A stretch of 64,000 nt of DNA. It comes from Paeniglutamicibacter sulfureus. Lineage in GTDB: Bacteria > Actinomycetota > Actinomycetes > Actinomycetales > Micrococcaceae. The stretch spans positions 1,362,149 to 1,426,148 of the forward strand of contig NZ_JAULBL010000002.1 of assembly GCF_030512175.1 (NCBI RefSeq), written 5' to 3'. Below are positions 1,937 to 8,298 of this stretch, piece after piece (within the stretch, counting starts at the first letter, position 1; each line of letters starts with the position of its first letter). A model generated the notes under the pieces. That model saw only the letters and a list, made by a program, of their open reading frames with translations. It made no database searches and was not told the origin of the DNA. A program made the translations under genes and the position numbers.

Positions 1937-1972
1937 TTGACCCATGTGTATCCACTGTATACGGTGAATACA
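1937..1972 (+). promoter_or_regulatory. Promoter with overlapping GntR-type operator for the Rieske operon
   Basis: TTGACC (1937-1942), a 17-bp spacer and TACGGT (1960-1965) form a plausible -35/-10 pair. Over it lies a 26-bp near-palindrome at 1947-1972, with outer arms TGTATcCAC and GTGaATACA and centre GTATAC. Only two symmetric base pairs break the symmetry. Placement across the -10 fits repression by the divergent GntR protein. Confidence 0.7.
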
Positions 1973-2008
1973 ATTCATCGCGTTCCATCTCCCGACAAAG
2001 GAAAAAAC

Positions 2009-3049
2009 ATGTATGTCTTGAACACCTGGTACGTGGCGGCCTGGAGCAACGAGGTCGACCGCAAGCCGGTAAAGCGGGTGATCTGCGAGCAGCCGCTGGT
2101 GCTCTTCCGCACCCAGAACGGAACGCCCGTGGCCCTGGCCGACCGCTGCGCGCACCGCGCCTTCCCGCTCTCGGAGGGCCGCACCATCGGGGATTCCATC
2201 GAATGCGGCTACCACGGCTTCACCTATGGGGAAGACGGCATGTGCACCAAGGTCCCGGCGCAAAGCACCATCCCCGAGCGTGCCAAGGTCCGCAAGTACC
2301 CGCTGGTGGAAAAGGACGGCTGGATCTGGGCCTGGATGGGCGATGCGGAGCTGGCCAACCCGGTGGACGTGCCGGACACGCACTGGATGACCGACCCCGA
2401 GTGGGCCACCGTCACCCACTCCTTCCATTTCAAATGCCGCGCCGGGCTGATACACGACAACCTGCTGGACCTGACCCACGAGTCGTTCCTGCACAAGACC
2501 ACCGTGGGCGACGACTACATCTACGAGCACGGCATCACCGTCGAGGTCGAGGGCTCGGTGGTCAGCGTCGACCGGCTGATGCCGTCTGTGGAGGCCCCGC
2601 CGCTGTACGCCGACACCATGGACGCCCGCGGTCTCTTCGACCGCTTCCACTGCACCGAGTTCTTCGTGCCCAACCTGCACGTGCTGCACTCCGGGATCAC
2701 CGGCGAGGGCAAGCCCCGCGCGGAGGGCTACCTCATCAAGGTGCTCAATGGCATCACCCCCATCGACGAGCACAACTCCTGGTACTACTACGCCTTCAGC
2801 CGCAACTTCGCGCTCGACGACGCGCAGGCCACCGAAGACCTGCGGGTGGGCCTGAACACCGTGCTGCAGGAGGACGCCGATGCCCTGGAGGCCCAGGAGA
2901 TCGGCATGCAGTCCCGCCCGGCCGGCGAATTCGACGTGCTCATCGCCCAGGACGGCGGCGTGGCCAAGGCCCGGCGCATCCTTTCCACGCTGATCAAGCG
3001 CGAGCAGGCCTCCGACACGGCCCGGCCCGTCGCCGGTGCCAGGGCCTAG
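2009..3049 (+). CDS. Rieske non-heme iron oxygenase, VanA-like
   Basis: Protein of 346 aa, the usual size of vanillate O-demethylase oxygenase subunits and relatives. The Rieske [2Fe-2S] ligands are C47-x-H49 and C66-x2-H69 (CAHR and CGYHG). The catalytic mononuclear iron site is visible as HDNLLDLTHESFLH (H157, H162). Start ATG 2009 is preceded by AAAGGA; an upstream in-frame ATG overlaps the operator and is unlikely. It is the first gene of the operon and is presumably fed electrons by the VanB-type reductase encoded last (7327-8298). Family members O- or N-demethylate or hydroxylate aromatic acids, sulfonates and betaines, so the substrate cannot be read from sequence. The neighbours argue for an amino-acid-like or N-acyl substrate. 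Confidence 0.88.
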   Translation: MYVLNTWYVAAWSNEVDRKPVKRVICEQPLVLFRTQNGTPVALADRCAHRAFPLSEGRTIGDSIECGYHGFTYGEDGMCTKVPAQSTIPERAKVRKYPLVEKDGWIWAWMGDAELANPVDVPDTHWMTDPEWATVTHSFHFKCRAGLIHDNLLDLTHESFLHKTTVGDDYIYEHGITVEVEGSVVSVDRLMPSVEAPPLYADTMDARGLFDRFHCTEFFVPNLHVLHSGITGEGKPRAEGYLIKVLNGITPIDEHNSWYYYAFSRNFALDDAQATEDLRVGLNTVLQEDADALEAQEIGMQSRPAGEFDVLIAQDGGVAKARRILSTLIKREQASDTARPVAGARA

Positions 3050-3054
3050 CCGCC

Positions 3055-5545: not shown

Positions 5546-6481
5546 ATGACCCTCATGACCGAACCCAAGAAGACCGCGGCGTTGGGTGACGAATACTCCA
5601 TCGTCAAGGCCCGGCACCCGGGGCGATGGCTATCCGCCGCAGTGATCCTGTTCCTGGGATTGCTACTTGCCCGCTCGGTGGTCACCAACCCGAATTTCGG
5701 GTGGGAAACCGTAGGGATGTACATCCGAGACGTCTCCATCGTGCGCGGCATCGGCATCACCCTGGAACTGACCGCCATCTGCATGCTCATCGGCATCGTT
5801 CTGGGGGTGGTGCTGGCCGTCATGCGGATCTCGGCGAACCCGGTGGTGCGCACCGCGGCCTTCGCCTACGTGAACTTCTTCCGCGGCACCCCGGTGCTGG
5901 TCCAGCTGCTCTTTTGGTACAATCTGGCCGCGCTCTATCCCTCGATCACCTTCGGCATCCCCGGGGTGGACCTGGATGCGAACGCGATCATCACCCCGCT
6001 CACCGCCGCGATCCTGGGCCTGGGCCTGAACCAAGCGGCATACATGTCCGAGATCGTGCGGGCCGGCATCCTCTCGGTGGAGCACGGCCAGTCGGAGGCC
6101 GCAGGCGCCCTGGGCATCAACCGGCTGCAGACCATGCGGCGGATCATCCTGCCCCAGGCAATGCGGGTGATCATCCCGCCCACCGGCAACGAAACCATCG
6201 GCATGCTCAAGACCACAGCGCTGGTCTCGGTGATCTCGGTTCCCGAGCTGCTCTACTCCGCGCAGGTCATCTACGCGCGGAACTTCGAGACCATCCCGCT
6301 GCTCATGGTGGCCAGCATCTGGTACATCGTGGTCACCTCCATCCTGAGCGTCGGGCAGTTCTACCTGGAGCGCCACTACGCCAAGGGCGGGCAGCGCAGC
6401 CTGCCGCCGACCCCGTGGCAACAACTCAAACGCTTCGTGCGGGTCCACGACCCGCTGACCGGCAAGGGAGCCAGGAAATGA
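5546..6481 (+). CDS. Amino acid ABC transporter permease (HisM/GlnP type)
   Basis: Protein of 311 aa with about six predicted membrane segments. It carries the family N-terminal [18 protein letters not shown] segment, the [11 protein letters not shown] region and the cytoplasmic EAA loop ([22 protein letters not shown]) that docks on the ATPase. The N-terminal cytoplasmic extension of about 35 residues and the basic C-terminal tail are slightly longer than usual. Only one permease gene is present, so the channel is probably a homodimer. GGAAGG precedes ATG 5546, and the stop overlaps the ATPase start in ATGA. Confidence 0.9.
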
Positions 6482-7281
6482 GTGCGACCACCATGGAAAC
6501 CGCCGTCACGGCCACGGCGCCGGAACCGATGATCAAGGCCGATGCTGTCCGCAAGAGCTACGGCCACCTAGAGGTACTCAAGGGCATCGACCTGCAAGTG
6601 GCCCGCGGGGAGGTCGTGTGCCTGATCGGGCCCTCGGGCTCGGGCAAGTCCACGCTGCTGCGTTGTATGAACCACCTGGAATCCATCGAGGGCGGGCGCA
6701 TGTGGGTGGACGGGAAGGTCATGGGCTATGACATCAAGGGCAGCAAGCTGCACGAACAGCCGCATGCGAAGGTTTGCCGATCCCGCACGGAAATCGGGAT
6801 GGTCTTCCAGCACTTCAACCTCTTCCCGCACATGACCGTGCTGGAGAACCTCATCGAGGCCCCGCGTCTGGTGCTCAAGGAAAGTCGTGCCGCGGCGTCC
6901 AATCGGGCCATGGTGCTGCTGGATTCGGTGGGTCTGGCCGACAAGGCGAAGGCCTACCCGCGCCAGCTCTCGGGCGGGCAACAGCAGCGCGTGGCGATCG
7001 CCCGTGCGCTGTGCATGAAGCCGAAGGTGATGCTCTTCGACGAGCCCACCAGCGCCCTGGACCCGGAGCTGGTCGGCGAGGTCCTCAAGGTCATGAAAGA
7101 CCTGGCCGCCACCGGCATGACCATGGTCGTGGTGACCCACGAAATGAACTTCGCCCGCGATGTCGCGGACCGCGTGGTGTTCATGGACAACGGGCACGTG
7201 GTCGAGTCGGGCCCTGCCAAGGACGTCATCGGCAACCCGCAGCACGAACGCACCCGCGCCTTCCTGGCCTCGGTCCTCTGA
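6478..7281 (+). CDS. Amino acid ABC transporter ATP-binding protein
   Basis: Protein of 267 aa. It has Walker [11 protein letters not shown]-loop region [13 protein letters not shown], signature LSGGQQQR, Walker [15 protein letters not shown] and H-loop VVVTHEM. It belongs to the GlnQ/HisP group that powers polar amino acid import. It starts inside the permease stop (ATGA), so the two are translationally coupled. The first 18 residues are a low-complexity T/A-rich extension before the conserved domain. Forty-five bases separate it from the reductase, which remains in the same transcription unit as no terminator is seen. Confidence 0.93.
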
Positions 7282-7326
7282 GACATCCATCCATTCATCC
7301 AGTCATCCTCGAAAGGGCACACAGCC

Positions 7327-8298
7327 ATGTCGACCCTGGAATTTATTGAAACCGTCGTCCACCGCATCACCAGAGAGTCCGACGGCGTCATGTCCCTGGA
7401 GCTACGCCACCCGTTGGGGCAGGAGCTGCCCGAATGGAGCGCCGGGGCACACCTTGACGTGATGCTCCCCAATGGATTGATCCGACAGTATTCCCTCTGC
7501 TCGAATCCCGGGGTGCGGGAATCCTGGCGTCTGGCGGTGCTGCGCGAACCCGCGGGGCGCGGCGGTTCGGCCTATGTGCATGACGAACTGCGCCCCGGCA
7601 CCAAGATCCAGGTGCGCGGGCCCAAGAACAACTTCGCCCTGGCCCAAGCGGGGGAGTACGTGTTCCTGGCCGGAGGGATAGGCATCACCCCGATCCTGCC
7701 CATGGTGCGGGCCGCCGCCGCGGCGGGAGTGCCCTGGAAGCTGGTGTACCTGGGCCGCAGCCGGGCGAACATGGCCTTCCTGGACGAGCTGGCGGTGTAC
7801 GGGGACAAGGTGCACATCCACGCGGACGACGAGAGCGGCTTTTATCCGCTGGCCGACTTGCTGGACGATCCTGCCGCCGGTTTCCACGTGTACACCTGCG
7901 GTCCCGGGCCCCTGCTGAAGGTGGTCGAATCGCTGGCCGGGTCCTGGCAGGATCCGTCCCGCCTGCACTTCGAGCGCTTTGCCGCGGATCCCGAGACGGC
8001 TGGCGCGGCCGTGTCGCCGCACCAGGGGGACCACGAATTCACGGTCCAGGGCACCGACGGAACCGAGGTCAGCGTCCCGGTCGGAGTGAGCATCCTGCAG
8101 GCCCTGGAAAATGCCGGCATGAGCCCGCTGAACTCCTGCCGCGAGGGGATCTGCGGCACCTGCGAGACGCCGGTGATCTCCGGGGAGATCGACCACCGCG
8201 ATTCCCTGCTCTCGGATGGGGAACGCGAGGCCGGGGACACCATGATGATCTGCGTGTCACGGTGCAGGGGCCAACGCCTGGTCCTCGATCTCGGCTAG
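7327..8298 (+). CDS. VanB-type ferredoxin reductase (FMN/NAD/plant-type [2Fe-2S])
   Basis: Protein of 323 aa, standard for phthalate dioxygenase reductase-like partners of VanA-type oxygenases. The N-terminal flavin domain contains RQYSLCSNP. The NAD domain follows with FLAGGIGITPILPM. The C-terminal plant-type [2Fe-2S] domain has CREGICGTC (about residue 272) plus the fourth cysteine in MMICVSRC. It should transfer electrons from NAD(P)H to the Rieske protein at 2009. AAAGG lies near 7312 upstream of ATG 7327. Its stop codon interlocks with that of the convergent acyl-CoA dehydrogenase. Confidence 0.92.
   Translation: MSTLEFIETVVHRITRESDGVMSLELRHPLGQELPEWSAGAHLDVMLPNGLIRQYSLCSNPGVRESWRLAVLREPAGRGGSAYVHDELRPGTKIQVRGPKNNFALAQAGEYVFLAGGIGITPILPMVRAAAAAGVPWKLVYLGRSRANMAFLDELAVYGDKVHIHADDESGFYPLADLLDDPAAGFHVYTCGPGPLLKVVESLAGSWQDPSRLHFERFAADPETAGAAVSPHQGDHEFTVQGTDGTEVSVPVGVSILQALENAGMSPLNSCREGICGTCETPVISGEIDHRDSLLSDGEREAGDTMMICVSRCRGQRLVLDLG

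Follow-up and report, generated by a model that had tools for sequence, protein, structure and literature searches.

A conserved Rieske oxygenase operon with a HutD-like protein in Paeniglutamicibacter sulfureus and its possible link to modified histidine

Background

Which compound is taken up and oxidised by the products of an operon in which a Rieske oxygenase, a small cupin-fold protein and a polar amino-acid importer are encoded together? The question is raised by a 64,000-nucleotide stretch of Paeniglutamicibacter sulfureus DNA (contig NZ_JAULBL010000002.1, positions 1,362,149 to 1,426,148; hereafter the window, whose numbering is used below). An original prediction made from the sequence described import, deacylation and oxygenation of a modified amino-acid-like compound. 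Both the gene set and its conservation in soil actinobacteria are well established, and the core of the system is the oxygenase, the HutD-like protein and the reductase, usually with the importer, deacylation being optional. A histidine-derived substrate is the best-supported reading, although it stops short of demonstration. We tentatively propose, at somewhat less than an even chance, that these genes form an inducible operon for the catabolism of histidine modified on its side chain, most likely by ring N-methylation and perhaps also as an N-acyl or beta-alanyl conjugate.

Operon organisation and conservation

Seven coupled genes are present on the + strand from 2009 to 8298, downstream of a divergent GntR gene, with the oxygenase first and the reductase last as had been predicted. 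The intergenic spacing from the gene coordinates is, in order, 5 bases, an overlap, 56, 15, an overlap and 45. The genes are as follows.

2009..3049, + strand: Rieske non-haem iron oxygenase (Pfam Rieske and VanA_C, both over cut-off)
3055..3504, + strand: HutD-like small cupin-fold protein (predicted model, fold search and profile comparison)
3492..4541, + strand: AstE/AspA-type zinc amidohydrolase (Pfam AstE_AspA_cat; start GTG at 3492 or 3501)
4598..5530, + strand: family-3 solute-binding lipoprotein of a polar amino-acid ATP-binding cassette (ABC) importer (SBP_bac_3)
5546..6481, + strand: ABC permease (family profile match)
6478..7281, + strand: ABC ATPase (EhuA 329 bits, cut-off 345; TcyN 328.6 bits, cut-off 406)
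7327..8298, + strand: flavin adenine dinucleotide (FAD)/[2Fe-2S] reductase for the oxygenase (Pfam Fer2, FAD_binding_6 and NAD_binding_1; tree)
1177..1839, - strand: divergent GntR/FCD regulator, probable repressor of the operon (Pfam GntR and FCD)

The operon had been taken to begin at 1937; the oxygenase starts at 2009, where the window protein and its relatives from 21 loci align from M1 (L021, the remaining locus of the 22, is truncated and was omitted).

Conservation was analysed in 22 loci obtained by a scan with the window oxygenase as query. Genes on the fetched loci were called with an in-house program based on codon scores and labelled by BLAST against selected queries, with some genes missed or mis-started. 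The names HutI, HutF, IclR and NCS1, like the ferredoxin assignment in L022, are our own reading unless a profile search is cited. The operon is not a chance arrangement because the oxygenase is 82-95% identical in 18 Micrococcaceae loci and the gene order is kept. The HutD-like gene was kept in 21 of the 22 loci, the reductase and the binding protein in 19 each, and the permease and the ATPase in 18 each (L012 stops at a contig end), and the GntR gene is divergent to the oxygenase in 19. This conserved gene set supports the predicted import and oxygenation of an amino-acid-like compound. As for a cluster of all seven families, the block order held and the hydrolase, found in just 14/22 loci, did not. 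No hydrolase homologue was found at E<=1e-10 in any of the four Micrococcaceae genomes with a hydrolase-less locus (L010, L013, L014, L017). Because of these two results deacylation is considered optional and was rejected as a core step, contrary to the fixed step first predicted, and the order of import, deacylation and oxygenation cannot be read from the genes. Whatever the substrate, a conserved Rieske-HutD-like-reductase unit is thereby defined, with the hydrolase as its optional part.

The oxygenase was found at E<=1e-120 in 25 of 395 sampled Micrococcaceae genomes. A first profile of the HutD-like protein matched 1/396 genomes of the phylum, and a broader profile 8/337 genomes of the order. 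Plasmid relatives of the oxygenase (199 records) were all below 60% identity, and the HutD-like protein gave no plasmid match. Two Rieske-HutD-like-GntR copies (L164, L165) occur in one genome, G952, one of them with a cytochrome P450 (P450) gene inserted on the other strand. Genome G598 holds extra importer copies at L143 and L150 (permease 88%, ATPase 85%), with a 52% binding protein, a GntR paralogue and an operator-like site, each copy lying near an M20-type hydrolase.

Oxygenase and reductase

The first protein carries the Rieske [2Fe-2S] motif and the VanA_C domain and is a Rieske oxygenase of VanA_C type. The residues C47-x-H49, C66-x2-H69, H157, H162 and D289, which we take to be its ligands, are invariant in 18 aligned oxygenases. 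The best solved relative is the dicamba demethylase DdmC (149.6 bits). Like VanAB and DdmC, the operon pairs a Rieske and VanA_C oxygenase with an FAD/[2Fe-2S] reductase; it differs from the VanA/VanB type in that the oxygenase is always tied here to a HutD-like gene, except at L020. Identity with vanillate demethylase VanAB, a pair to which the prediction had likened these genes, was rejected: the same genome holds a separate VanA/VanB-like pair (L098), at 41% and 34% identity to the operon pair. The oxygenase falls in a clade apart from the VanA-like proteins with support 99/98, in a tree that carries a long-branch warning, and the reductase lies far from VanB-like reductases (branch 2.42). 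Identity above 70% to a characterised pair, along with a transporter and hydrolase not conserved nearby, was named beforehand as the pattern that would undermine the prediction; the DdmC score, the 41-43% identity between the VanA-like protein of the genome and the oxygenase, and the binding protein in 19/22 loci show a different picture. Streptomyces Rieske-reductase pairs (40-43%, mostly 49-55%; L096 38%) were set aside as belonging to other pathways, no HutD-like gene being labelled alongside.

NdmA/NdmB perform Rieske N-demethylation of N-methyl heterocycles (methylxanthines). They are matched in the PDB by the operon oxygenase at 65 and 58 bits, which is distant, and they have other partners and another substrate. 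N-demethylation by the operon, suggested by such analogies, is weaker still than the histidine assignment.

The earlier idea was degradation of an aromatic or methoxylated amino-acid conjugate through VanA-like O-demethylation and deacylation, which we consider unlikely. It is favoured by the VanA_C match over cut-off, by DdmC as nearest solved structure and by the DoeB/AspA-type hydrolase. Non-orthologous N-acyl-amino-acid hydrolases near some loci without the hydrolase also agree with it, among them the M20 enzyme of L013, whose nearest solved relatives are an indole-3-acetic acid-amino-acid hydrolase and an N-acyl-glutamine aminoacylase. The hydrolase is, however, dispensable, no ring-cleavage genes were noticed among the called neighbours (no profile search was aimed at them) and the associations with histidine utilisation (hut) genes described below are left unexplained.

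Hydrolase and importer

The hydrolase has the AstE/AspA catalytic domain (Pfam AstE_AspA_cat) with its metal-binding residues; H69, E72, H155 and E220, presumably the metal-binding and catalytic positions, are invariant in 15 sequences. Its nearest NCBIfam model is DoeB (TIGR02994) at 218.4 bits against a cut-off of 402.7, placing it outside DoeB/EutE. SBP_bac_3 together with a matching permease and ATPase places the importer in the polar amino-acid ABC class. In the binding protein R140 is invariant and D232 nearly so (16 sequences), and we assume carboxylate- and amine-type roles for them.

These components are shared with ectoine utilisation (DoeB/EutE, Ehu), since a DoeB-like hydrolase and an Ehu-like ATPase are found in the operon. 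A cyclic compatible solute such as an ectoine-like compound, opened by the oxygenase, deacetylated by the DoeB-like enzyme and imported by an Ehu-like system, would fit DoeB as best NCBIfam model (218 bits), the near cut-off EhuA score (329/345 bits) and a class-III aminotransferase with an aldehyde dehydrogenase nearby. All these models are nevertheless under their curated cut-offs and the DoeB-like gene is missing in 8/22 loci, which makes this substrate very improbable. A pyridinium or other betaine (e.g. homarine, trigonelline, hercynine), oxidised and demethylated, is also distinctly improbable, given an importer of the class for polar amino acids and a binding protein that retains residues of presumed carboxylate- and amine-type roles. 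In favour of such a substrate, environmental bacteria are reported to possess a pathway for homarine (Ferrer-Gonzalez 2026, as cited in PMC13390433).

HutD-like protein

The plain Pfam search gave no family for the window protein, HutD included, and in 22 relatives one touched HutD (E 0.031) and one Cupin_6 (E 0.016). Its model is of good confidence (predicted local distance difference test, pLDDT, 86.6). The fold search with this model gave PA5104 (1yll), which we take to be a HutD, as top PDB match (E 1.3e-4, template modelling score 0.61), with other cupins closely behind, and the profile compared with seven HutD proteins gave a probability of 77 and E 2e-5. We conclude from the fold search and profile comparison that the window protein is a diverged HutD-type protein; the predicted 'HutD/cupin-like' label is supported by these two methods and is not shown by plain Pfam search. 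The fold is shared with the hut pathway, and hut-type neighbours occur at some loci, but Pfam HutD misses the window protein and the true HutD of this genome is separate, within its hut region. The hut pathway is not known to include a Rieske oxygenase.

Histidine links in gene neighbourhoods

The aromatic or methylated acyl conjugates, betaines and ectoine-like compounds offered earlier as examples did not include histidine-type compounds, to which the neighbourhoods point instead. Forty-six stretches containing the oxygenase or the HutD-like gene were scored, some of which repeat one place or are short, and a hut-type link was seen in four (L010, L164, L170, L086/L090). At L010 the operon is 0.9 kb from a hut cluster, with hut genes directly next to the GntR gene and the oxygenase; this cluster has HutH over its cut-off and urocanase, and HutI and HutF by our reading. 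At L164 (oxygenase 76%) the order is M20x-reductase-P450-HutD-like-Rieske-GntR, where M20x is a hut-type amidohydrolase that occurs in seven hut stretches (L010, L079, L080, L081, L083, L086, L148); in L164 it is truncated where the contig stops (228 residues, 357.6 bits, cut-off 372). At L170 a HutH-like lyase and a P450 are 7.7 kb from a Rieske-HutD-like-reductase set; the lyase is 65% identical to that of the sister cluster L140 described below, an M20 hydrolase is also present and the Rieske protein is of a second type. In the genome holding L021, the HutD-like gene is 6.4 kb from HutH with a GlcD-like gene alongside, and an LldD-like gene adjoins HutI; the link is visible in L086, the overlapping L090 stopping short of the hut genes.

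Urocanase was found in 25/25 oxygenase carriers against 325/395 Micrococcaceae genomes overall, with a chance probability of P 0.006 that assumes independent genomes and is uncorrected for their kinship. It was also present in 14/14 genomes tested for 14 of the 22 loci.

A class-III aminotransferase (PRK06062) and/or a methylmalonate-semialdehyde dehydrogenase (MMSDH) lie near the operon in 6/22 loci (L001, L007, L012, L015, L016, L022), and both are near it in P. sulfureus as well; MMSDH scored 680 bits (cut-off 449). Beta-alanyl dipeptides of histidine would explain these neighbours and the hydrolase. The same surroundings raise the alternative of a substrate derived from a pyrimidine, a hydantoin or beta-alanine, with the hut links incidental. 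This rather improbable reading draws on PucR, the NCS1-like permease, HyuA/HyuB, the aminotransferase and MMSDH at the window locus, and on HyuA/HyuB in L002, L004, L009 and L077. HyuA/HyuB occur, however, in 3/22 loci only, and hydantoins would not be expected as cargo of a polar amino-acid ABC importer. The HyuA/HyuB proteins at the window locus score below the caprolactamase cut-offs. The NCS1-like permease accompanies HyuA/HyuB in L002 and L009, L004 having HyuA/HyuB only, and this pair of features supports the histidine idea no better than the other readings.

Sister and paralogous clusters

A sister cluster in the same genome (L140, contig C1 862000-881900) contains a HutH-like lyase, an ABC importer, a HisC-like aminotransferase, a reductase and a divergent P450, and a congener has the same gene content (L142). 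Their reductases are 66-69% identical to the operon reductase (69% within the genome), and that of L140 falls among operon reductases with moderate support (88/95 and 86/87, under the starred level). The L140 permease and reductase, which flank the lyase, are the nearest paralogues in the genome of their operon counterparts; the permease reaches 60%, with the next two at 36-38%. With the HutH models PRK09367 (cut-off 524) and TIGR01225 (cut-off 539) the L140 lyase scored 536 and 510 bits. Asn replaces His83 of histidine ammonia-lyase (HAL) in this lyase and in those of L142, L079 and L081, and Asp stands there in L170, while the methylidene-imidazolone (MIO) motif and the HAL-type Glu are retained; such a lyase may act on an altered imidazole.

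Second hut clusters (L079-L081) combine a divergent lyase of this type with a urocanase-like enzyme close to thiourocanate hydratase models, HutI-/HutF-like genes and their own importer, in which the permease shares 58% identity with that of the operon. Second urocanases of carrier genomes reached 616 bits to S-methylthiourocanate hydratase and 578 to thiourocanate hydratase, under the cut-offs (880, 930); they resemble the NCBIfam models of ergothioneine/thiourocanate degradation and lie outside the window operon. A paralogous set with a second type of oxygenase (54-55%) occurs at six loci (L066-L071), in the order HisC-like enzyme (272.9 bits, cut-off 276.6), Rieske protein, HutD-like protein, together with a divergent importer and 2-hydroxyacid dehydrogenases; in L071 the HisC-like and Rieske proteins were called as one fused frame.

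Proposed mechanism

From the gene content, conservation, upstream motif and neighbourhoods we infer the following course for a modified histidine. The ABC importer would take up the compound. Supplied by the reductase with electrons from NAD(P)H, the Rieske oxygenase would oxidise it, most simply by demethylation with release of formaldehyde. At loci that encode it, the DoeB-like hydrolase would cleave an acyl or beta-alanyl group. The product would enter the hut pathway, and freed beta-alanine could pass to the neighbouring omega-aminotransferase and MMSDH. The HutD-like protein may bind a ligand in an accessory or regulatory capacity, the part ascribed to HutD in hut, and the GntR protein would repress the operon until a ligand is present.

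Several observations weigh against a modified histidine. No hut gene was seen in 42/46 stretches, and the immediate neighbours of the window operon are HyuA/HyuB, the NCS1-like permease, the aminotransferase and MMSDH rather than hut genes. Urocanase is common in Micrococcaceae anyway, and kinship confounds the carrier comparison. The binding protein looks suited to a free alpha-amino acid and a poor fit to an N-acylated import substrate, which together with the optional hydrolase argues against beta-alanyl dipeptides. Neither the HutD-like gene nor the reductase was found at L020. L022, from a 1.7 Mb actinobacterial metagenome-assembled genome, has the oxygenase and the HutD-like gene without the importer, and a 98-residue ferredoxin-like protein (L022:8956-9252) stands beside the oxygenase in place of a full reductase. 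Demethylation is suggested by analogy with the reactions of VanA, DdmC and NdmA-type enzymes, and the oxygenase model (mean pLDDT 52, C-terminal two thirds mostly <50) was too poor for pocket inspection and was set aside. An apparent operator near hut in genome G798 falls within coding sequence and was discarded.

A broader proposal is that actinobacterial oxygenase modules, Rieske here and P450 in the sister cluster with closely related reductases, remove ring N-methyl groups from methylated histidines, either free or conjugated to a beta-alanyl or acetyl group (for example anserine-type compounds), and pass the histidine on to hut, accompanied by a diverged HutD; this appears doubtful as a whole. 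Methylated histidines are excreted by animals and released from muscle. If the proposal holds, the genes would account for the microbial fate of these compounds, show how imidazoles other than purines can be N-demethylated by a Rieske enzyme or a P450, and give HutD-like proteins a role outside hut. In the open-access literature, most subscription papers being outside its scope, neither a Rieske route for methylhistidine nor a pathway with this gene set was found described.

Promoter, operator and regulator

Two features are our own reading of the aligned upstream regions; the consensus promoter scan recovered no promoter in the 1937 region.

1937..1965, + strand: probable promoter TTGACC, 17 bases, TACGGT
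1947..1972, no strand assigned: probable GntR operator that overlaps the -10 region and has its GTATAC core at 1957-1962

The TTG at 1937 is the beginning of TTGACC, which is probably the -35 element. GTATAC was present in 19/20 upstream regions compared (window and L001-L018; absent from L019). The operator pattern gave one zero-mismatch match in the 4.55 Mb genome, the operon itself, and none in the reversed control, and a wider regulon in this genome was therefore rejected. One further zero-mismatch place was found in G598, beside the GntR paralogue, the M20 hydrolase and the 52% binding protein.

At the other end of the operon, an acyl-CoA dehydrogenase gene (window 8295-10307, - strand) is convergent with the reductase gene with a 4-base overlap; among the 22 loci this dehydrogenase gene was found in L001 only.

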